A stretch of 33,973 bases of DNA, taken from a virus. A program made the position numbers and the translations under genes. Location of the stretch: the IMG/VR virus record IMGVR_UViG_3300031623_000024, positions 1 through 33,973 of that record, one strand, 5' to 3'. The notes under the pieces were generated by a model. The model saw nothing but the letters and a program-made list of their open reading frames with translations. It was not told the origin of the DNA and made no database searches. Shown here piece after piece: positions 10,255 through 28,738 of this stretch (position 1 is the stretch's first letter; each line of letters starts with the position of its first letter).

Positions 10255-12498
10255 ATGTCATTGAAAGCGTTACAAGATTATACATTTGTAAGCAAGTATG
10301 CAAGATATAATGAGGAGTTGAAAAGAAGAGAAACATGGGACGAAGCAGTTAGTCGTGTTAAAAATATGCATTTTGAAAAGTATCCACAAGATGATATTAA
10401 AGACGATATTGAATGGGCTTTTGAAAGAGTCAAAGAAAAAAGAGTTTTAGGTTCCCAAAGAGCACTTCAGTTTGGCGGGAAGCCAGTATTAAAGAAAAAT
10501 GCTAGACTTTATAATTGCTGTGTAAGTTATTGTGATAGACTTAGATTCTTTCAAGAATCATTTTGGCTTTTGCTATGTGGTTGCGGGGTAGGGTTTAGCG
10601 TTCAAAAACATCATGTGGGGAAACTTCCTGGTTTTTCAGCCAGAAAAGAGGAAAGCAAATTATACGTGATTCCCGATAGTATTGAGGGATGGGCTGATTC
10701 GCTTGGCGTTTTATTTAGTAGTTATTTTGGAGGAGGAGATTTCCCTAAGTACGAGGGATATAATGTTGAATTTAATTACAGTAGGATTCGACCGGAAGGG
10801 TCTAAGCTTAATTCTTCTTCGGGCAAGGCTCCTGGCCCTAAGCCACTAAAAAATGCATTAGAAAAGATCGCAGAGCTTTTAAATTCTCGCATAGAAGATG
10901 GCCAAACAGAACTCCGCCCAATTGATGCATACGATGCCGTGATGCATGCATCAGACGCCGTGTTAAGTGGTGGAGTTCGTAGAAGTGCGACTATCTGCCT
11001 GTTCAGCCCAGATGACTTGGAAATGGCTACGGCCAAAACAGGCAATTGGTTTAATGAAAACCCACAAAGGGGCAGGAGCAATAATTCGGCTCTTCTTATT
11101 AGAGATGAAACTTCTTATGAACAATTTGAATCTTTAATAGAATCTGTTAAAGAATATGGAGAACCGGGGTTTGTGTGGTCTGACAGCACAGAGCTAATGG
11201 TTAACCCATGTGTGGAAATCGGAATGTGGCCAGTTTGTGAAGTTACGGGAGAAAGCGGTTGGGAATTTTGTAATCTTTGTGAAATCAATGGCAAAAAAGT
11301 CAAAAGCGAAGAAGACTTTGCTGTTGCGGCCAAAGCTGCTGCCATTATTGGAACTTTACAAGCTGGTTATAATCATTTTGAGTATCTTGGTGAGGTCACA
11401 GATCGGATTGTAAAGAGAGAAGCCCTTTTAGGGGTTTCAATTACAGGAATGATGGATTCGCCGGATGTTTTATTTGACGCTAAACTTCAACGAAAAATAG
11501 CCAAGCTAGTCTTAAAAGTTAATGATGAGATTTCTGAAAAAATAGGGATTAACAAATGCGCCCGAGCCACTTGTGTAAAGCCCGCAGGCACAACAAGTTG
11601 CATACTTGGCACCGCTAGTGGGATTCATGCGCATCATGCTCGAAGGTATATTCGCAGATCGCAAGCCAATTATCTTGAGGCTCCATGTTCCCATTTTAAA
11701 AAAGTTAATTCAAATGCGGTGGAGAAAAGCGTTTGGAGTGCTAACGGCACAGATGAAGTGATTTCTTTTTGCATTGAGGTTCCAAAAGGTGCAAAAATAA
11801 AGAATGAATTAGATGCTATAACTTTATTGGAACATGTGAAATTAACTCAACAAAATTGGGTGTCGGCTGGGACTCGTGAAGGATTTAGCACGCATCCTTG
11901 GCTTAAGCACAATGTTAGCAATACTATTACTGTGAGGGATGGGGAATGGGAAGAAGTTTCTAAATTCATTTTTAAGAATCGCCGTCATTTTGCGGGGATT
12001 TCTTTGTTGCCTCAATCTGGGGATAAGGATTATCCGCAAGCTCCATTTACTGCTATTTATACGCCAACTGAATTGGCAAAAACATATGGAGACGGAATGC
12101 CAATGGCCTCCGGTTTAGTAGTTGATGGATTGCATGCTTTTGATGGCAATTTATGGGCTGCGTGTGATGAAGCACTTGGTGTTACCGATTTAGAGAAGCC
12201 CTCGGAAGGCCCTAATGATTCTATTGGGGATTTTCGTTACCAATTAGATTTTAAAGAATGGGAAAAGAAAAAAGATTGGTGCCGTAGAGTGCAACAATTT
12301 TCTGATCGGTATCTTGAAGGGGATATAAAACAAACTACTTATCTCATGAAGGATGTTCATAATTGGAAGTTATGGTGTGATTTAAAAAGGGAATATAAGG
12401 ATGTGGATTATACATTGTTGTTTGAAGAATCGGATGAAACTAAACTTTTACAAGAAAGTGCGTGTAGCGGAGGAAGCTGCACGATAGAATACGCTTGA
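10255..12498 (+). CDS. nrdJ: Adenosylcobalamin-dependent (class II) ribonucleotide reductase
   Basis: This enzyme reduces ribonucleotides to deoxyribonucleotides using a B12-generated radical, independent of oxygen. The length of 747 fits the monomeric triphosphate reductases, about 740 residues in Lactobacillus. The finger-loop motif NPCVE gives the thiyl Cys319 and Glu321. The CNL segment (Cys339) and an N-terminal Cys at 88 or 89 can form the active-site disulfide pair. The C-terminal CSGGSC (Cys737 and Cys742) is the redox shuttle. An extra segment of about nine residues separates NPC from CNL. AGAGG precedes the ATG. The gene lies after gp46 with an 80-base leader and before a terminator. 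It implies a host that makes or imports B12. Confidence 0.93.
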   Translation: MSLKALQDYTFVSKYARYNEELKRRETWDEAVSRVKNMHFEKYPQDDIKDDIEWAFERVKEKRVLGSQRALQFGGKPVLKKNARLYNCCVSYCDRLRFFQESFWLLLCGCGVGFSVQKHHVGKLPGFSARKEESKLYVIPDSIEGWADSLGVLFSSYFGGGDFPKYEGYNVEFNYSRIRPEGSKLNSSSGKAPGPKPLKNALEKIAELLNSRIEDGQTELRPIDAYDAVMHASDAVLSGGVRRSATICLFSPDDLEMATAKTGNWFNENPQRGRSNNSALLIRDETSYEQFESLIESVKEYGEPGFVWSDSTELMVNPCVEIGMWPVCEVTGESGWEFCNLCEINGKKVKSEEDFAVAAKAAAIIGTLQAGYNHFEYLGEVTDRIVKREALLGVSITGMMDSPDVLFDAKLQRKIAKLVLKVNDEISEKIGINKCARATCVKPAGTTSCILGTASGIHAHHARRYIRRSQANYLEAPCSHFKKVNSNAVEKSVWSANGTDEVISFCIEVPKGAKIKNELDAITLLEHVKLTQQNWVSAGTREGFSTHPWLKHNVSNTITVRDGEWEEVSKFIFKNRRHFAGISLLPQSGDKDYPQAPFTAIYTPTELAKTYGDGMPMASGLVVDGLHAFDGNLWAACDEALGVTDLEKPSEGPNDSIGDFRYQLDFKEWEKKKDWCRRVQQFSDRYLEGDIKQTTYLMKDVHNWKLWCDLKREYKDVDYTLLFEESDETKLLQESACSGGSCTIEYA

Positions 12499-13355: not shown

Positions 13356-14987
13356 TTGCCAAAATATATTGTTGTATGTGGGGGCGTCATATCCGGCACA
13401 GGGAAAGGTGTATCCGCTGCCTCGATGGGTCTATTGATGAAATTAAGAGGGCACACAGTTACCCTTATTAAATTTGATCCTTATTTTAATATAAATGCTG
13501 GAATTCTTGCCCCTCGTGAACATGGAGAATGTTTTTTATGTGACGACGGGACAGAGACCGATTTGGACTTAGGGCATTATTCTAGGATTGCTGGTATTGA
13601 CCCTAATGCAGATAACATATGCACTTCTGGCGTTTTGTATAAAGAATTGATTCAAGAACAAGAAGAGGGTAAGTGGTTGGGTCAAACGATTCAAATTATT
13701 CCTCATGTAACTGATAAGATACAAGAAAGATTAGAGGCATTAGGGGTCTCGTCGGAAATTGTCATTGCCGAAATTGGCGGCACAGTTGGGGATATGGAAA
13801 GTGGCCAGTTTTATGAGGCCCTCCGACAATTTAAACAGAAACATGGCGATGATTGCCTAATTGTTTTTGTTGCTCCCATCTTATGGGTTCCTACTATTAA
13901 AGAATTTAAAACTAAACCATTTCAAAATAGTTATAGAGATCTTCAAAGACATGGGATTCAGGCAGACATGTTGTTTTGTAGGGTAGATCGAAAACTTCCT
14001 GAAAAAATAATTAAAAAAATTAGTGATTTAACAAATGTTTCTAGGGATGATGTGTTTGATGCCCCTGACGTGGACACAATTTATCAAGTTCCAATTGAAT
14101 TTTATAATAGAAACGTAGATGATTTAATCGCAGATAGGTTTAGACTGAAAAGAAATTATTGTAAAATTCAAAAATATCGTGATTTAGTAGAGAAATATAT
14201 GCGGCTTAAAGAGGATGGTGGCCTTGAAGTCAATATTGGGGTATTTGGAAAATATGAAAACTGCGAGGAAGCTTACATCAGTTTAAAAGAAGCTCTTATT
14301 CATGCTTCATTAGACAATAATGTGCGATTCAACATAAAGTGGATTACCGCTGAAGACCTTGAATCTTACAAAGATATGCGTGGTTTAAATAAATACTTTG
14401 AGGAACTGGACGGGGTTATCATACCAGGTGGATTTGATCAACGGGGCGTAGAAGGTAAAATAAAAGCAATTAAGTTTGTTAGAGAAAAGAAAATCCCTTT
14501 CTTAGGCATTTGTTTAGGGCTTCAGTGTGCAGTTATTGAATTTGCAAGAAGTGTTTGTGGTTTAAAAGATGCAAATAGCACTGAGTTCGATAAACTTACT
14601 TCAAACCCTGTTGTTGATTTTGTAGAAGGGCAAGAAGGACTTAAAAAGAAATCAGGAACAATGAGATTGGGAGCTTATGATTGTGCTCTCAAAAAAGATA
14701 CATTGGCTCGTAAAATATACAATAAAAAGACTATAAGCGAGCGGCACAGGCATAGATACGAAGTTAACAATGATTATATAAACATCATAGAATCTAAGGG
14801 AATGGTAGTTTCTGGAACAAATCCATCATCTGGTCTTGTAGAAATGATAGAAATCAAGGAACACCCATACTTTATTGCAACTCAGGCGCATCCTGAATTT
14901 AAAAGCAGCTTAGTAAGTGCGGCACCTTTATTCTCTGGGCTAATTAATGCAGCAATAGAATATAAGAATAATGGGACTGATGAATAA
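13356..14987 (+). CDS. pyrG: CTP synthase
   Basis: This enzyme makes CTP from UTP, ATP and glutamine. The N-terminal synthetase domain has the P-loop GTGKGVSAAS, the DDGTETDLDLGHY segment and GGTVGDMES. The glutamine amidotransferase domain has GICLGLQ with nucleophile Cys386, and HPE with His512 and Glu514. The length of 543 is normal. The start is TTG, chosen because AGGAGG sits five bases upstream. Residues around the UTP/CTP-binding segment differ from the usual KTKPTQHS (here KTKPFQNS), and DPYFNINAG replaces the common DPY-N-DPG. Both could change feedback inhibition by CTP, but that is an inference. CTP synthase is uncommon in phages. Confidence 0.95.
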   Translation: MPKYIVVCGGVISGTGKGVSAASMGLLMKLRGHTVTLIKFDPYFNINAGILAPREHGECFLCDDGTETDLDLGHYSRIAGIDPNADNICTSGVLYKELIQEQEEGKWLGQTIQIIPHVTDKIQERLEALGVSSEIVIAEIGGTVGDMESGQFYEALRQFKQKHGDDCLIVFVAPILWVPTIKEFKTKPFQNSYRDLQRHGIQADMLFCRVDRKLPEKIIKKISDLTNVSRDDVFDAPDVDTIYQVPIEFYNRNVDDLIADRFRLKRNYCKIQKYRDLVEKYMRLKEDGGLEVNIGVFGKYENCEEAYISLKEALIHASLDNNVRFNIKWITAEDLESYKDMRGLNKYFEELDGVIIPGGFDQRGVEGKIKAIKFVREKKIPFLGICLGLQCAVIEFARSVCGLKDANSTEFDKLTSNPVVDFVEGQEGLKKKSGTMRLGAYDCALKKDTLARKIYNKKTISERHRHRYEVNNDYINIIESKGMVVSGTNPSSGLVEMIEIKEHPYFIATQAHPEFKSSLVSAAPLFSGLINAAIEYKNNGTDE

Positions 14988-17558: not shown

Positions 17559-18149
17559 CTATTTGTATTGCTTTTTCATATTGCGAGATCCGACAAAGCC
17601 CCACCAGAGCCTCTTCAGCCGAGTAGCTTGGTTGAGGGTGTGGAACAGTCTGCGGCAGTCTTCTGTATCCTTCTCGGCTGCATGAGCGTTCTCTAATGAC
17701 CATCCAAGATACCTTCGGCAGTTATCCATAGAAACACTGTGAAGGCCAGTAGGCATGAGGTGTTCTATGGCAAGGGTCTGAGTATCCATTGCCCTATGAG
17801 CCAGATAACGCTCTTCAATACCACCTTCTTTCAGAAGAGCATTGAGAGCCTTGATATCAAATTGGACATTGTGTCCAACGGGTATCCCCCTCTGGCAGAG
17901 TTTCTCGGCTATGATCTTAGCGGCTTCTGTTTTCGTGAGGGCATCTTTCCAGCTTTCGGAGTTATACCCATTAATTTCCAAAGCCTTGGGATGTGCAAGA
18001 TCAATCCTCGCAGGGAGAACTTTATAGGTTCCTCTGTCGATAATCCTTCCTGTTTCATCTTCAATGATGAAACAGAATTCAATCACTTCGTGATTGTCAG
18101 GGGTGACATCTAACCCTGTGGTCTCAGTATCAATAAATAAGAATTTCAT
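17559..18149 (-). CDS. DEDDh 3'-5' exonuclease (DnaQ-like)
   Basis: The 196-residue protein carries the full exonuclease set: FIDTETTGLD (Asp7, Glu9), GHNVQFDIKALN (Asp98) and HAAEKD (His156, Asp161), which is the H-x-A-x-x-x-D Exo III epsilon motif. MDTQTLA near 121 is typical of DnaQ-like enzymes. It would remove nucleotides from 3' ends, for proofreading or RNA/DNA trimming. The start overlaps the upstream stop (ATGA), so it is translationally coupled to the 236-residue gene. The C-terminus is basic (RNMKKQYK). Base composition is more GC-rich than the genes to its left. Confidence 0.92.
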   Translation of the reverse strand: MKFLFIDTETTGLDVTPDNHEVIEFCFIIEDETGRIIDRGTYKVLPARIDLAHPKALEINGYNSESWKDALTKTEAAKIIAEKLCQRGIPVGHNVQFDIKALNALLKEGGIEERYLAHRAMDTQTLAIEHLMPTGLHSVSMDNCRRYLGWSLENAHAAEKDTEDCRRLFHTLNQATRLKRLWWGFVGSRNMKKQYK

Positions 18150-18856
18150 TTTTGTGGTTGTTTGTTTTTAAGGTAGATTGTATTGTTCTGCCATTGGTTT
18201 ATGTTTCTAATTAAACCTTCTGCTTCTTCTAACTCTCTGTCTAGCTCACTTGCTTCGTGCTGACTTTCTACACATAGTTCTTTTTTTCTGTATTGCACGA
18301 GTGTCTTCTTCATAAGTCTTTTAACTGCGTGGAATTTCTCTTCGACATGATCAACTTGATCATCCAAATCAGCCCATTGGAACGGGCTTTCTTGAAGTTC
18401 TTCATCAGATTCAAATGGAGACTGATAATCATCGCCCCAATTGAAAATATCAGTTTTTGAAGCTCTGATCTCAGAGATGGTTCTGCCTTCCAGACATGCT
18501 CTCGCCGCTGTCACAGCCCGCTTGTAGACGTTTGTGGGGTTTTCTCCTTTGTTCCGCATCATCCACATCCATAGAAGGTAGGTGGGATCATTCACGCCAT
18601 CAAACATTTCATTCTTCATTTTATCACAGAAAGGTGTGATTTCTTCTTTGCTGTACTTAAGCATGCATTTGACCACAACTGCAATAACCGCACTGCTAAT
18701 GCGAGGCATATGATCAATTGCCCACTCTATGGATCGCACATGTTCTTTTTTAAATCTTGCTCGAATATGGTCATCAACCTTCAGTCTGCCTCCTTGACCC
18801 GACTTCATCATTTGATTACATGCGCCAGTTATCAATCCTTCTCGTCTTGTATTCAT
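18146..18856 (-). CDS. Paralogue of the C-terminal domain of the ParB-like protein, 236 aa
   Basis: Residues about 38-150 align with the C-terminal part (about 270-378) of the ParB-like protein at 19946. Both contain a KCxLxY-(S/G) segment, an F-D/N-x-x-NDP motif, an LLW/IWM-x-(M/L) stretch, an NVYKR/DVYQK helix with an AAxxxxEGRTI-x-(E/K)(I/V)R motif, and a D-IF-(N/E)-W-(G/E)-D end. The ParB/Srx-like N-terminal domain is absent. The C-terminus is instead an acidic to mixed coiled coil (HVEEKFHAVKRLMKK onward). AAAGGA precedes the ATG. The function is unknown; it could bind the same partner or form mixed oligomers with the full-length protein. Confidence 0.75.
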   Translation of the reverse strand: MNTRREGLITGACNQMMKSGQGGRLKVDDHIRARFKKEHVRSIEWAIDHMPRISSAVIAVVVKCMLKYSKEEITPFCDKMKNEMFDGVNDPTYLLWMWMMRNKGENPTNVYKRAVTAARACLEGRTISEIRASKTDIFNWGDDYQSPFESDEELQESPFQWADLDDQVDHVEEKFHAVKRLMKKTLVQYRKKELCVESQHEASELDRELEEAEGLIRNINQWQNNTIYLKNKQPQK

Positions 18857-19945: not shown

Positions 19946-21097
19946 TTATTTGGTAGGGACTACCCAACCATCTTCCCACTCGAAGATGTCTTCCGATCTA
20001 GATCGAACTTTCGCAATCGTGCGGCCTTCAGCCGCTGCAATCGTGCAGGACAGAGATTTTTGGTACACATCAACTGGTGATGTGTACGACTTGCTCGTCT
20101 TTGTCTTTTGCAGCCAGATCATCAGCAATTTCGCCGGGTCATTTTGGTCATTAAAGACCATCGTGCGGAATCGATCAGCAAAGTCGGCTATTTTTTCTGG
20201 CCCGTACCATAAAACACATTTTCCTATTGCCGCCATCACATCGGCTCTCAATTTTCCAATATTTGAATGCAACCAGATGAGGGTGTCCTGATGCTTCAGG
20301 GCAAAAGCAGCAATTTCTGATTCACTATATTTTATGTTGCTTCCATTGGTTCCTCGCATCATGGCACGGCAAACGGCAGCAGTGGAGTTGCCCATGTGCA
20401 CATCAAGAACCAATTTGAGCTTGTCGTTAACATTTCTTTTTGCGCCTGAGTCGATAGCCCAGCGACTATCGTAGGGAACATTAAACGTAAAATAAAATGC
20501 TTGACCTTTGAAGCTGGAATTCAACTTGTTTGCACGAATTATTGCCGATAAACGGTGCTGGCCATTTTGCAGGGCAGATTGAGTGTCAATGTCGATTGAC
20601 TCGCCGGTTTGCATCCAACTACCGGAGAGCATGTCTCGTGCATATGCTTCTACCGTAGGACTTTTGAGGTCTCTATTTCCATCATTGTGAAGCAAACACT
20701 GCTCTGCTTCATCGTTAGTCACAAAAATATGCTCAGAGTATTGATTGATTGTTTTCACATAATAGTGCCAAGGATTTTTAGCTCCGTCTTTTTTACGCTG
20801 TTCGGCGTAATGTACACGATTCGCTTCCGCTTCAGCGGCAACCTGCTGTTTGGCTTCGGCCTCGGATTCCTGACGTATAATAGATGGAATCTGAACAGTT
20901 GGTTTCGCAGCTTGTTTCGTCGTTGTAGGATGTTGTGTTGGTTCAGCAACAAGAATCTCGGCATCCTTCCCATCAACGAAAAGTTGTTTTACCTGATCAA
21001 GCCGAGCTTGTACGACTTCTGCGTTGCTCCGTCCGCTCGCTCCGATCAAGTGTGCCTGAGCCGTTTTGTGTTGTCTTCTCTTTTTTCTACGTGCCAT
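19946..21097 (-). CDS. ParB/Srx-like domain protein, 383 aa
   Basis: The N-terminus is very basic (MARRKKRRQHK), followed by an Ala/Gln-rich helical linker to about residue 105. Residues 125-225 form a ParB/sulfiredoxin-like core: a helix with AYARDMLSGSWMQTG, an acidic strand and the GQHRLSAI motif at 179-186, equivalent to the G-x-x-R nucleotide-binding motif of ParB. The C-terminal domain (about 255-378) is shared with the 236-residue gene. ParB-type proteins of this shape in phages are of unknown role; DNA binding and CTP or ATP use are family-based guesses. It is driven by its own promoter and followed by a terminator. Confidence 0.75.
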   Translation of the reverse strand: MARRKKRRQHKTAQAHLIGASGRSNAEVVQARLDQVKQLFVDGKDAEILVAEPTQHPTTTKQAAKPTVQIPSIIRQESEAEAKQQVAAEAEANRVHYAEQRKKDGAKNPWHYYVKTINQYSEHIFVTNDEAEQCLLHNDGNRDLKSPTVEAYARDMLSGSWMQTGESIDIDTQSALQNGQHRLSAIIRANKLNSSFKGQAFYFTFNVPYDSRWAIDSGAKRNVNDKLKLVLDVHMGNSTAAVCRAMMRGTNGSNIKYSESEIAAFALKHQDTLIWLHSNIGKLRADVMAAIGKCVLWYGPEKIADFADRFRTMVFNDQNDPAKLLMIWLQKTKTSKSYTSPVDVYQKSLSCTIAAAEGRTIAKVRSRSEDIFEWEDGWVVPTK

Positions 21098-21995: not shown

Positions 21996-22211
21996 CTATT
22001 TTGATTTTCTCTTTGCAGCTTCCATCTGCTCATCTTCACGCTTCTTCTGTGCAATAAACCTTTCGATCATCCATTTTCGCTCGTTGATCGGCATTTGGAG
22101 GCATTCTGACCTTTGCATTCGCAAATGATATTGGAAAAAGAATAATTCTTCCGCCAATTGCTGCCAAAATACTAAGCTTGAGTCTTCTCCGTTTTCCGTG
22201 CCTTTGGGAAG
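21996..22211 (-). CDS. -1 frame extension, baseplate/tail chaperone-like, 71 aa
   Basis: This frame is open from the slippery site of the upstream gene to a TAG at 21998-21996. The extension contains FWQQLAEELFFFQYHLRMQ, LQMPINERKWMIERF and a charged tail. This helix pattern (aromatic, Glu, H-L, P-I, E-R-x-W) is typical of small phage tail or baseplate assembly chaperones. It has no ATG until 22118, which would give only 40 residues and has no ribosome binding site; a TTG at 22157 is equally unsupported. Ribosomes shifting -1 at 22217-22211 would make a fusion of about 413 residues with the gp26-like protein. Coding potential is good; the expression route is inferred. Confidence 0.65.
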   Translation of the reverse strand, partial: LPKGTENGEDSSLVFWQQLAEELFFFQYHLRMQRSECLQMPINERKWMIERFIAQKKREDEQMEAAKRKSK

Positions 22212-23236
22212 AAAAAATTTGATTCTAACGGTAAATCAACTTCAAATTCATGTAAACAAGAAGCACATGTAATGCCAACCATTGTGTCTACTCCAAATGG
22301 AGGCTCATTAATTGTATTCCTTAAGTGTGTTACATCACTAATGGGTAAGTTTTTAATCAGCGTAAGTAACTCGGCGGTACCCTTAAGGCCTTCTATTTCG
22401 TCGAGCAAACAAGCTGTTCGATAAGCCAATGAATCGTCAGTGGCCGTATCTCCAAATTGTTTAATTCTTCTCTCTCTGTATTCTGTCAGTTCAGTTTCAT
22501 CTTTTCCTGTAGACAATCTGTATTTGAAACTATATCCACTTGTGGGTAATGTTCCACTTTGTATATCTTGACTATAGTCGTCAGGGCAGAAGTCTACAAA
22601 TAAAGAGTTGAGATCAAGAACAGTAGAAAATTTAGTGTCACAAGAAGGGCATCCAATTTCAACTTCATATTCAGGAGAATATGAAATACCACGTAAGTAA
22701 ATTAAAAGATATGTTCTATCTTGTGTTAATAATTTCTCTACCTGAAAGGTCTCTTGCATGCAACTTTTAAAAATCATATCAATGGCTTGTCCTTTTCGGA
22801 CAAATCTAGGAGTTGCGAGAATTTGTTCTTCTTCGCCAGTCATCGGTCTAATATGAATGACCCCATCAAGTGGCCCATCGTCACCGTCATAAAATCTTCC
22901 TTTACTCGGCAGAGTGAGCGCCTCAAAAACCCTTGTGTCTCTAACTTTAGAAAGTAGATCTGCCAGTAGTCCTCCACTAGAGGAAGGCGCAATTTGCGAT
23001 GCCTGTTGTTGTGGGGCAGCACTGCCCTGCTGCTGCATTGCTTTTTTCATGGCCGGTGGAACGTTTCCTTGCATTGGTGGAACGTTTCCTTGCGAAACAG
23101 GACTTTCTCTGGGGACATGTGCAGTTTCTTCTTGCACAGACTCCCTCATAGAGGCCATTTCTTCTAATTCTTTATTGTTTTTTTCTGCAATAACTGCCTG
23201 CTCTTCTTTGGTCGGTCGGAAAGTATCGTCTGCCAT
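22172..23236 (-). CDS. T4 gp26-like baseplate hub/assembly protein, 354 aa
   Basis: After a Gln/Pro/Ala-rich, probably disordered N-terminus (about residues 1-100), the core reads LPSKGRFYDG, IRPMTGEEEQIL, an RKGQAIDMIFKSCM helix and DRTYLLIYLRGISY. Then come CPSC near 215 and CASC near 330, a likely zinc-binding pair. This order matches the T4-type baseplate protein family that includes gp26; assignment is by pattern, without a search. It would act in baseplate hub assembly. AGGAG precedes the ATG. Near the 3' end the codons TCA AAT TTT TTC hold a slippery heptamer, so a longer -1 product is likely. It is divergent from the gene at 23287. Confidence 0.75.
   Translation of the reverse strand: MADDTFRPTKEEQAVIAEKNNKELEEMASMRESVQEETAHVPRESPVSQGNVPPMQGNVPPAMKKAMQQQGSAAPQQQASQIAPSSSGGLLADLLSKVRDTRVFEALTLPSKGRFYDGDDGPLDGVIHIRPMTGEEEQILATPRFVRKGQAIDMIFKSCMQETFQVEKLLTQDRTYLLIYLRGISYSPEYEVEIGCPSCDTKFSTVLDLNSLFVDFCPDDYSQDIQSGTLPTSGYSFKYRLSTGKDETELTEYRERRIKQFGDTATDDSLAYRTACLLDEIEGLKGTAELLTLIKNLPISDVTHLRNTINEPPFGVDTMVGITCASCLHEFEVDLPLESNFFFPKARKTEKTQA
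22211..22217 (-). promoter_or_regulatory. Slippery heptamer U UUU UUC, candidate -1 frameshift site
   Basis: In the zero frame of the gp26-like gene the bases read aaT TTT TTC, the canonical X XXY YYZ arrangement. Just upstream A AAT TTT (22220-22214) is a second, overlapping match. Both shift into the frame that stays open for 71 more codons. The shift occurs 12 codons before the zero-frame stop. Confidence 0.65.
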
Positions 23237-24168: not shown

Positions 24169-24539
24169 GAAAAGTAGGATTGTTAGATGTAAAGGCTGCT
24201 TTGCAAGATGAAAGATTCAGGGACACACTACCGGAAGAAATGCAAAAAGAGTTTAAAGGCATATCTTGTTCGTCTTGTCCGGCTAACACATCTTTTTATC
24301 AGCGTATACTTCGAGAACATAGAAGCCAATTACAAGAATATTTCCCCGCCAGAGAAGTAGCTGACATTAAAGAAGAAAATAGAAAACTAGCAGAAAATCA
24401 TTGGATTATAATTAATTGTCATATTGATGAGCTTGAGTCTAAATTGAAAAAATTGCCGCCGGGGAGGAAACAGCTTGATTTATCAAGATACGAAGATCAA
24501 GTTACTGTGGTGGTCAACGAGATAGATGTTTTGTATTAA
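24165..24539 (+). CDS. Hypothetical protein with CSSCPANTSFYQR motif, 124 aa
   Basis: The N-terminus is helical (LDVKAALQDERFRDTLPEEMQKEF), followed by the compact motif CSSCPANTSFYQRIL at about 35-49. A long helix continues through REHRSQLQEYFP and EENRKLAENHW, and the end (DQVTVVVNEIDVLY) is a strand. I do not recognise the family. It is the third Cys-pair protein in this run, starting in an ATGA overlap with the zinc-ribbon gene. Confidence 0.7.
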   Translation: MRKVGLLDVKAALQDERFRDTLPEEMQKEFKGISCSSCPANTSFYQRILREHRSQLQEYFPAREVADIKEENRKLAENHWIIINCHIDELESKLKKLPPGRKQLDLSRYEDQVTVVVNEIDVLY

Positions 24540-24564
24540 TGATTTATTAATAATAAATATTAAT

Positions 24565-25389
24565 ATGAAGGTGCTTTTAATTTCTCCTGACAATGATATT
24601 TTAAATTGTTTAAAAATTGACAATTCAACTGAATCTGCGCACATTGTTGCATGGTGGAACAATGTAAGAATTTCAAAAGCAAGAACCTGCCAGGAAGGCC
24701 TTGCTTTGGTTGGAAAAAAATCTTTTGATTCAATCATCATCAATCATTCCATGCCAGACTGTGATGCTATTGAATTAATTCCTTTAATTCAAAAAGTAGA
24801 TGATTTATCTAGCATAATATTTGTTACTGAAAATGGTGACGAGATGTTAGCTGTGCGGGCGCTTCAGACAGGGGCCACAGATTATGTGCCTAAAAATAAA
24901 CTTACAAAAGTAATATTATATAAAACTCTTAGAAATTCTATAAAATATCATCAAGCTAAAAAAGATAAAAGTTTTTATGAAGAATTTTACAACAATTCTC
25001 CTGTTGGCTTTTACCGTACAAGCATTAAAAATGGAACAATATTAAAAGCTAATAAGAAGTGCGCAGATATTCTTGGGTTTAAGAGTGTGGATCATATGAA
25101 GAAAAGCACTAAAGCTTCTGATCTTTATTCTTCTGAACTAAGGAGCAAACTCATTGGTATGCTGAACGACACTGGCTCTGTAACAAACTTTGAAATCCTT
25201 TTGGGCAATGGAAATTGGATCTCTTTGTCTGCCAAATCAAACCTAAAGGAAGGGTATCTGGAAGGCTCTGTAGAAGACATTACTTATAGAAAAATTATAG
25301 AAAAAAAATTACAACAACATAGAGAAAAAGAAATGAAATCTTTGAAATCAATACAAGAAAATGTTACGGCTAGGCTTTTGGATTTTTAG
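24565..25389 (+). CDS. Receiver (phosphoacceptor-less) plus PAS domain protein, 274 aa
   Basis: Residues 1-125 follow the CheY-like receiver pattern: strand MKVLLIS, then DSIIINHSMPDCDAIEL, FVTENG with Thr88, and GATDYVPK with Lys110. The phosphoacceptor position is Asn60 rather than Asp, and the acidic pair after strand one is Ser-Pro-Asp, so classical phosphorylation looks lost. Residues about 137-245 form a PAS domain (NNSPVGFYRT, ILKANKKCADILGF, GSVEDITYRK). A 25-residue helix follows and the protein ends without any kinase or DNA-binding domain. I prefer ATG 24565 because it begins strand one; ATG 24526 would add 13 residues and overlap the previous gene. Neither has a clear ribosome binding site. 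It is convergent with the sigma factor pair. Confidence 0.78.
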   Translation: MKVLLISPDNDILNCLKIDNSTESAHIVAWWNNVRISKARTCQEGLALVGKKSFDSIIINHSMPDCDAIELIPLIQKVDDLSSIIFVTENGDEMLAVRALQTGATDYVPKNKLTKVILYKTLRNSIKYHQAKKDKSFYEEFYNNSPVGFYRTSIKNGTILKANKKCADILGFKSVDHMKKSTKASDLYSSELRSKLIGMLNDTGSVTNFEILLGNGNWISLSAKSNLKEGYLEGSVEDITYRKIIEKKLQQHREKEMKSLKSIQENVTARLLDF

Positions 25390-27434: not shown

Positions 27435-28031
27435 TTAAAATACTTCAAGATAAGCTCTATCATATTTTAAGGTCATTGTAATCAGAGCAACCTCTGAAGA
27501 ACCCATATCTAATTCTCCAAAATCTATCTCTGACGGCCACATACCTTCCAGAGTCCATTGTTCTAGCTTTGTGCCACATCCATCATACATCGATATGTAC
27601 GCTTGTGGCAATTTGAACTGGCTAAATGCACCATTATTCGTCCTAGTGGCTTGATTATAACGTTGTTCCCTAGAACTAACTTTACCGGAAGGGTAATAAG
27701 AAAAATCTGGTCCTCTTCCGTATAAAGATAATATCCATTCATAAATTGGATGTTTAGTAGAGCTATTTGATCCGATTTCACTACTTGTATCATACACAGT
27801 TACTGTAATAGGATTCCATACTGGCCTTCCAGGGATGGTAATGGTCTCTACTAAGTGATTTACTTGAAAATCATTAAAAGTCAATTTAGGTCTAGCTGCT
27901 GTAGTTGGGGGATACATGTTAATCCCATCCCCCACAATTCCAGGGATTTCTAACATCCATCGAAATTTTCTTTTGAATATTGTTTTTGCTAGGCCTAAGG
28001 TTCCTAACCCCATGTTCATGCATTCTGGCAT
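27435..28031 (-). CDS. 19: Tail tube protein, gp19-like, second copy
   Basis: Residues share the gp19 pattern with the neighbouring 204-residue protein: N-terminal MG-LG-(x)n-FKRKFRW, a TW/PxTVT-Y-D segment, LYDGCGT-LE-WTL-G-WP and INFGELD/IDFGELD followed by a final strand set. ATG 28031 is the start because it has AAAGGA and aligns with the paralogue. A longer frame from 28109 would begin across a terminator hairpin. At 198 residues it is somewhat larger than T4 gp19. It forms hexameric rings of the inner tube, or caps or starts the tube. A separate terminator in front suggests independent control of dosage. Confidence 0.85.
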   Translation of the reverse strand: MPECMNMGLGTLGLAKTIFKRKFRWMLEIPGIVGDGINMYPPTTAARPKLTFNDFQVNHLVETITIPGRPVWNPITVTVYDTSSEIGSNSSTKHPIYEWILSLYGRGPDFSYYPSGKVSSREQRYNQATRTNNGAFSQFKLPQAYISMYDGCGTKLEQWTLEGMWPSEIDFGELDMGSSEVALITMTLKYDRAYLEVF

Positions 28032-28043
28032 AATTGTCCTTTT

Positions 28044-28082
28044 AAAAAAAAATAGGTTCCCCCAAAGTCGGAGGAACCTATT
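28044..28082 (-). terminator. Rho-independent terminator between the two tail tube genes
   Basis: Arms aataggttcc (28051-28060) and ggaacctatt (28073-28082) form a 10-base stem with a 12-base loop, followed on the minus strand by a run of T (28050-28044). On the plus strand a shorter T run also follows. It ends most transcripts after the first tube gene. The next gene's ribosome binding site begins right after the T run. Confidence 0.82.
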
Positions 28083-28123
28083 TAGTTTTTTAGATATTAA
28101 ATGGTCCAAACATTAAGGCTTCA

Positions 28124-28738
28124 TCAGATGGTGTTGATCGATTGGGGAACAGGTCGTCCGCCACCAGATGCGTTCGCACCGCAATCCGTATCACAGCACG
28201 GTGTGATGTCGAATACGGGACATAATGGTTCATAAGCAACTTGCGAATAACGTAAGGTCAATTCGATTGTTGCTTCTTCTGACGAAGAATAATCTAATTC
28301 ACCAAAGTTGATTGCTTGAGGCCATAGGTCTCTTAAGGTCCAGAGTTCGAGTGGTACTCCGCAACCATCATACAAGGTCAACATCCCAGTACCACTATAG
28401 TCGCTTCTGTGCTTTCCTTGTGTGGTTTTGACCGGATCGGTGAAGTTGTAAACAGAAGCTAGCCACGTATAAAGTTTCGCATTTTCATTCGTCGCAACGT
28501 CATAATAAGTGACCGTTATCGTTTCCCAAGTTGCTTTGCCTGGGATCCAGGTTTTAGCATTAAGGTAATTGATTTCTGTTTCTTCAATCGATATGTTCGG
28601 ACGGCTTGCTAATTTAACAAAGTGCTTAGGAACTTCCGCCCCACCGCAAATTTCTTTAATTTCAAACGTCCATCTAAATTTTCGTTTAAATACTAGTGTC
28701 GGGCCACCAAGGACCCCCATGCCCATATTTTCTGCCAT
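28124..28738 (-). CDS. 19: Tail tube protein, gp19-like, first copy
   Basis: The protein of 204 residues begins MAENMGMGVLGG and has FKRKFRWTFEI. It then has TWETITVTYYDV, a LYDGCGVPLELWTLRDLWP segment and INFGELDYSSSEEATIELTLRYS, matching gp19-type tubes. The C-terminal 35 residues are an added Cys/Gly-rich tail (CPVFDITPCCDTDCG), not in T4 gp19, which could be exposed or bind metal. AAGGAG precedes the ATG. It lies directly after the sheath gene, as 19 follows 18 in T4, and before a terminator, consistent with high expression. Confidence 0.9.
   Translation of the reverse strand: MAENMGMGVLGGPTLVFKRKFRWTFEIKEICGGAEVPKHFVKLASRPNISIEETEINYLNAKTWIPGKATWETITVTYYDVATNENAKLYTWLASVYNFTDPVKTTQGKHRSDYSGTGMLTLYDGCGVPLELWTLRDLWPQAINFGELDYSSSEEATIELTLRYSQVAYEPLCPVFDITPCCDTDCGANASGGGRPVPQSINTI

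Follow-up and report, generated by a model that had tools for sequence, protein, structure and literature searches.

The tail assembly chaperones of phages lambda (gpG/gpGT) and HK97 (gp13/gp14) are encoded with a −1 programmed frameshift, and lambda G/GT is located between the tail tube and tape measure genes. A −1 frameshift associated with a GTTTTT motif has also been described for the tail assembly chaperones of Vandenendeviridae and Andersonviridae (PMC12846349). In a review of T4, gp26 and gp51 are both classed as chaperones for hub assembly, with gp51 reported to be absent from the particle (PMC3004832). The PRFect paper (PMC10885494) states, with reference to Vladimirov, Gautam, and Davidson (2022), that T4-like phages replace frameshifting by two genes, one short and one a longer fusion. 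Judging from the two papers that cite this work (PMC10885494 and PMC12846349), the link between gp26/gp51 and tail assembly chaperones appears to have been published there already, and we infer that T4 genes 26 and 51 are the short and long genes in question. Given this apparent publication, the gene described here would add a member to the known frameshifted chaperones.

We analyzed a 33,973-nt stretch of viral DNA (i.e., positions 1 to 33,973 of IMG/VR record IMGVR_UViG_3300031623_000024), referred to here as the window. The source phage is T4-like and probably has a large genome. On the minus strand, an ORF encoding 354 amino acids (22172 to 23236) starts with an ATG preceded by AGGAG. On the basis of sequence comparisons, this gene very probably encodes a tail assembly chaperone whose long form is produced by a −1 frameshift of the lambda G/GT type. 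Like the lambda and HK97 genes, it would have two forms, an in-phase −1 heptamer near the 3′ end, and a helical extension (predicted for the window). Unlike those genes, it belongs to a different sequence family, and its short form is much longer and carries zinc-ribbon-like motifs (i.e., two CxxC motifs). It resembles the Vandenendeviridae and Andersonviridae chaperones in having a probable poly(T) slip site where the short form ends, together with an open −1 frame of >200 bp; these are other phage families, and the likeness drawn here is that of the slip site and the open frame. With T4 gp26 and gp51 it shares the Pfam family (PF12322), but in place of the single gene and probable frameshift of the window, T4 carries a pair of genes, one on each strand. 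Marine and cyanophage-like PF12322 genes have the same two domains with a homologous extension, but they would shift at TTT TGG CCT by +1 (or −2) instead of −1.

The product of the zero-frame ORF, which corresponds to the short form (TAC-N, lambda gpG-like), matched PF12322, the T4 gp26/gp51 family (E value, 3.2e-17; 63.4 bits against a curated cutoff of 24.5), and the "baseplate hub" family PHROG_150 (1e-21). The 3′ end of the ORF reads TCA AAT TTT TTC TTC CCA AAG GCA CGG AAA ACG GAG AAG ACT CAA GCT TAG, with twelve codons between TTC (22213 to 22211) and TAG (22174 to 22172). The two overlapping slippery heptamers reported in the first-pass annotation, A AAT TTT (22214 to 22220) and T TTT TTC (22211 to 22217), are both present on the minus strand and fit the in-phase X XXY YYZ pattern; its coordinates, its count of twelve codons ahead of the stop, and its count of 71 −1-frame codons were also correct. 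A third in-phase heptamer, CCCAAAG (22208 to 22202, minus strand), is not conserved. A second contig (L002) is identical to the window over 13,062 nt, making an assembly error at this locus less likely.

To place this locus among its relatives, we surveyed phage records and viral contigs. A tblastn search of phage records yielded 36 relatives, the closest of which (53% identity) was a 595-kb uncultured phage. A single-protein search of viral contigs returned nothing beyond the identical contig, and alignment-based pattern scans of viral contigs added approximately 150 loci; a search of bacterial genomes found no relatives. After near-identical sites were removed, 141 loci were left; at each, the position of the zero-frame stop was determined and the remaining two frames were translated through it. 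The helical domain was present in one shifted frame at 135 of the 141 loci (60 in −1 and 75 in +1) and in both shifted frames at none, a count that measures consistency rather than an independent search because the frames were assigned with profiles built from the same shifted-frame peptides. At the other six loci (L044, L068, L093, L145, L153, and L161) the extension was recognized in neither shifted frame; some of these are near contig ends or are doubtful homologs. Two comparisons provided an independent test: the window-clade profile detected +1-class peptides with E values down to 5e-16, and the window-clade and marine +1 profiles matched each other with an E value of 1.8e-17. The direct profile comparison of the window-clade and jumbo-clade extensions was not significant (probability, 5.9%), and the link between these −1 peptides goes via the marine set (90%).

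An in-phase slippery heptamer was present at all 60 dereplicated −1-class loci, together with an open −1 frame; the comparison of relatives proposed in the first-pass annotation thus turned out in favor of the frameshift. None of the 60 contained a −1-frame stop between the heptamer and the zero-frame stop, which is partly so by construction. TTTTTTC or TTTTTTT occurred in 57 of the 60, and A AAT TTT was kept in 35 and was the sole heptamer in 3. Given that the FF pair is conserved in the protein, synonymous choice is the useful test. The two Phe codons were TTT TTC in 27 of 27 window-clade genes, for which the genes' own Phe codon usage predicts 25%, and in 28 of 28 jumbo-clade genes, for which it predicts 23%. 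The corresponding binomial P values (5e-17 and 1e-18, respectively) overstate the significance, given the relatedness of the loci; the direction of the preference was the same across divergent clades. Furthermore, the codon ahead of the Phe pair ended in T in 57 of 57 cases, though it encoded N, S, H, D, R, or G. This codon choice fits slippage. Pairing rules make T TTT TTC the likelier slip site of the two, since it would allow perfect re-pairing of Phe-tRNA in both sites and is more conserved than A AAT TTT. Two observations count against slippage: no conserved 3′ stimulatory RNA structure was found in the window clade (mean z, −0.24; window, −0.35), and Shine-Dalgarno (SD)-like motifs were found upstream of the slip site at only 4 of 27 window-clade loci. 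The jumbo clade had weak hairpins (mean z, −1.45).

From 22235 onward, the −1 frame has no stop before the TAG whose last base is 21996, a run of 79 codons that includes 71 past the slip. The extension itself (21996 to 22211, minus strand; 71 codons plus stop) would complete the long form (TAC-NC, gpGT-like), with a predicted fusion length of 342 + 71 = 413 amino acids. In the window clade, the part of the −1 frame past the zero-frame stop had a median dN/dS of 0.21 over 28 usable pairs, none of which involved the window sequence because it is saturated at synonymous sites, and mismatch rates at codon positions 1 to 3 were 0.36, 0.25, and 0.57. Judged by these substitution patterns, the −1 peptide is under purifying selection. 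AlphaFold2 predicted a helical hairpin for residues 16 to 75 of the −1 peptide (22002 to 22181, minus strand), with helices at residues 16 to 34, 39 to 43, and 47 to 75 (mean pLDDT for the extension, 87.6; block means, 94 to 96 over residues 21 to 70). The extension matched DUF6760 (PF20546) weakly (E value, 0.052). A Foldseek search against viral models gave nothing significant; the weak matches included tail assembly chaperones and the 53-amino-acid "Gp51" of Prochlorococcus phage P-HM1. Overall, the comparison of relatives gives good support to the proposal, first made from the window sequence, of a −1 frameshift into a helical, chaperone-like extension.

The +1 class comprises 75 loci, mainly marine T4-like contigs (L024 to L093, L155 to L160, and others), in which the PF12322 genes end in TTT TTT TGG CCT and the helical extension is in the +1 frame. 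At 70 of the 75 loci, TGG is preceded by a YTT codon for Phe or Leu, and CCT came next in 64 of these. TTT TTT TGG CCT is thus a probable +1 frameshift site in the marine T4-like contigs. We also considered a −2 slip for this class, but the variants TTC TTT TGG and TTT CTT TGG fit +1 better. SP-15, LIS04, a streptococcal phage, LR756508, and L131 deviate from YTT TGG at the +1 site. Among them, SP-15 and the streptococcal and listerial phages (L006, L007, and L008) have a +1 extension without YTT TGG and share the string CC CGA TT shortly 5′ of the stop, which might be their shift site. The TTT TGG CCT variant of the marine relatives was the least expected feature of the survey, and a +1 slip there would be a recoding site absent from the literature consulted.

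We then considered the identity of the zero-frame protein. The first-pass annotation had described a gp26-like baseplate protein fused to a chaperone-like domain. Here the comparison calls for a revision: the PF12322/gp26 protein is itself the probable short form of a tail assembly chaperone, and the PF12322 gene is best read as encoding such a chaperone and not a baseplate part. With the same model, two PF12322 genes were detected in T4 (gp26, E value of 8.8e-64; gp51, 3.9e-52) and exactly one in 20 of 21 other records, with none above the threshold in Mel-JY01. T4 gp51 consists of a gp26-like part and an extra C-terminal tail. The gp51 profile matched virtual −1 fusions from L154 (E value, 4.5e-20) and L158 (1.4e-18) over both the gp26-like and the shifted parts; T4 thus appears to split between two genes what these relatives obtain from a single gene. 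The direct profile comparison of the window-clade extension with the gp51 C terminus was not significant (E value, 0.15), and this link goes via intermediates. T4 gp26 itself lacks the extension, and none of the frames overlapping the end of T4 gene 26 contained the extension domain.

Structure and gene position were also examined. In the predicted structure of the short form (pLDDT, 84.7), the top structural neighbor was the HK97 gp13 tail assembly chaperone (Z, 5.7, a middling value; rmsd, 6.4; 98 aligned residues; third rank, Z of 2.9), a match that is suggestive only. Foldseek alone gave no significant match for the short form (E value, 2.8), and a sequence search for a solved structure of the PF12322 family found none. 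In SP-15 and LIS04, the homolog is located between the tail tube and tape measure genes, i.e., in the position of lambda G/GT. The window gene is approximately 4 kb from the tail tube genes, and T4 gene 26 is likewise not between tail tube and tape measure genes. No tape measure gene was recognized beside the PF12322 gene in the window, which is a fragment whose missing neighbors may lie outside it.

The −1 peptide might instead come from a separate small gene that yields no fusion, with ribosomes either initiating within the −1 frame (at TTG 22157 or ATG 22118) or reinitiating once they have passed the TAG. Reinitiation would suit the ATG found 2 to 5 nt past the stop in L003, L015, L023, and L142, and small distinct ORFs are annotated at this position in Mel-JY01, SP-15, Atu_ph07, and XaC1. 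In the window, the sole −1-frame start that gives at least 45 amino acids is TTG 22157, which lies 17 nt past the stop and has no SD-like motif before it; ATG 22118 falls within the conserved domain. The start position varies among relatives, and L016, L022, L140, L010, and L012 have no start giving at least 45 amino acids. SD-like motifs preceded a possible −1 start at 1 of 27 (window clade) and 0 of 31 loci, an absence that alone is weak evidence because the same test was positive for only 11 of 26 predicted window genes. The earlier remark that the −1 frame has no supported start extends to the relatives, where neither a start codon nor a ribosome site is conserved, whereas the slippery codons are. 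Relatives with a proper start and ribosome binding site but no heptamer, which the first-pass annotation had named as evidence against a frameshift, were not seen among the 60 loci. In addition, ahead of the stop the −1 reading contains an FFLP string whose FF hardly varies among relatives, and T4 gp51 carries both parts in one chain. A separate gene is consequently very unlikely.

The T run at the site raises a further alternative, i.e., that RNA polymerase slips on it and some mRNAs gain one base. The window has six T's and the +1-class loci have up to seven, as such slippage would favor. However, L094, L095, and L121 have only five T's and still keep the in-phase A AAT TTT, the run is broken in the +1-class loci L047, L067, L090, and L049, and it is the codon phase (57 of 57) and not the run length that is conserved; we regard transcriptional slippage as very unlikely. 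Finally, a slippery-looking string beside a fortuitously open frame, or an assembly error, would draw on the fact that conserved FF residues make T-rich codons expected. This explanation is strongly contradicted by the 60 loci, the synonymous choices, the purifying selection, the shared folded domain, and the identical second contig, and it is hardly credible.

Under the preferred reading of a ribosomal −1 frameshift, most ribosomes would stop at the TAG at 22174 and release the 354-residue short form. Some ribosomes would shift back by one base at T TTT TTC, possibly with help from A AAT TTT, which overlaps it. These ribosomes would continue beyond the stop for 71 more residues, which would fold as a helical hairpin, and the resulting long form would have 413 residues. 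If lambda gpG/gpGT is a guide, both forms would act jointly in covering or escorting the tape measure protein and in promoting polymerization of the tube, and neither would be retained in the virion. The comparisons establish the sequence signal with its conservation, the selection on the −1 frame, the shared domain, and the single gene copy in place of the two in T4, and from these and the lambda system we infer the ribosomal shift, its rate, and the chaperone function.

A broader proposal, for which we see the chances as even, is that one chaperone family keeps a short and a long form and changes how the long form is made (i.e., by −1 slips, +1 slips, or duplication with in-frame fusion). 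The window clade and several jumbo phages would use a −1 slip at (A AA)T TTT TTC, marine T4-like phages a +1 slip at TTT TGG CCT, SP-15-like phages that infect Gram-positive bacteria a different +1 site, and T4 the duplication. Under the chaperone reading of the window gene, the widespread "baseplate hub gp26" label in many jumbo and T4-like phages would need correcting, since these proteins are more likely tail assembly chaperones. The long form would also be missing from annotations, which show the extension as a hypothetical ORF or omit it. The −1, +1, and two-gene variants would offer a natural series for asking why the ratio of chaperone forms matters.

Several other genes in the window were also of interest. 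Two adjacent tail tube (gp19-like) paralogs (27435 to 28109 and 28124 to 28738) are 35% identical over 192 aligned columns. Another paralogous pair (18146 to 18856 and 19946 to 21097; 30% identity over 142 amino acids; E value, 2.6e-26) had no convincing Pfam match. The window also encodes a protein in which a PAS-like domain comes after a response-regulator receiver domain (24526 to 25389), here in a phage contig, and a B12-type ribonucleotide reductase-like protein (10255 to 12498). A full-length CTP synthase is encoded at 13356 to 14987, in an ORF that starts with TTG and has AGGAGG ahead of it.
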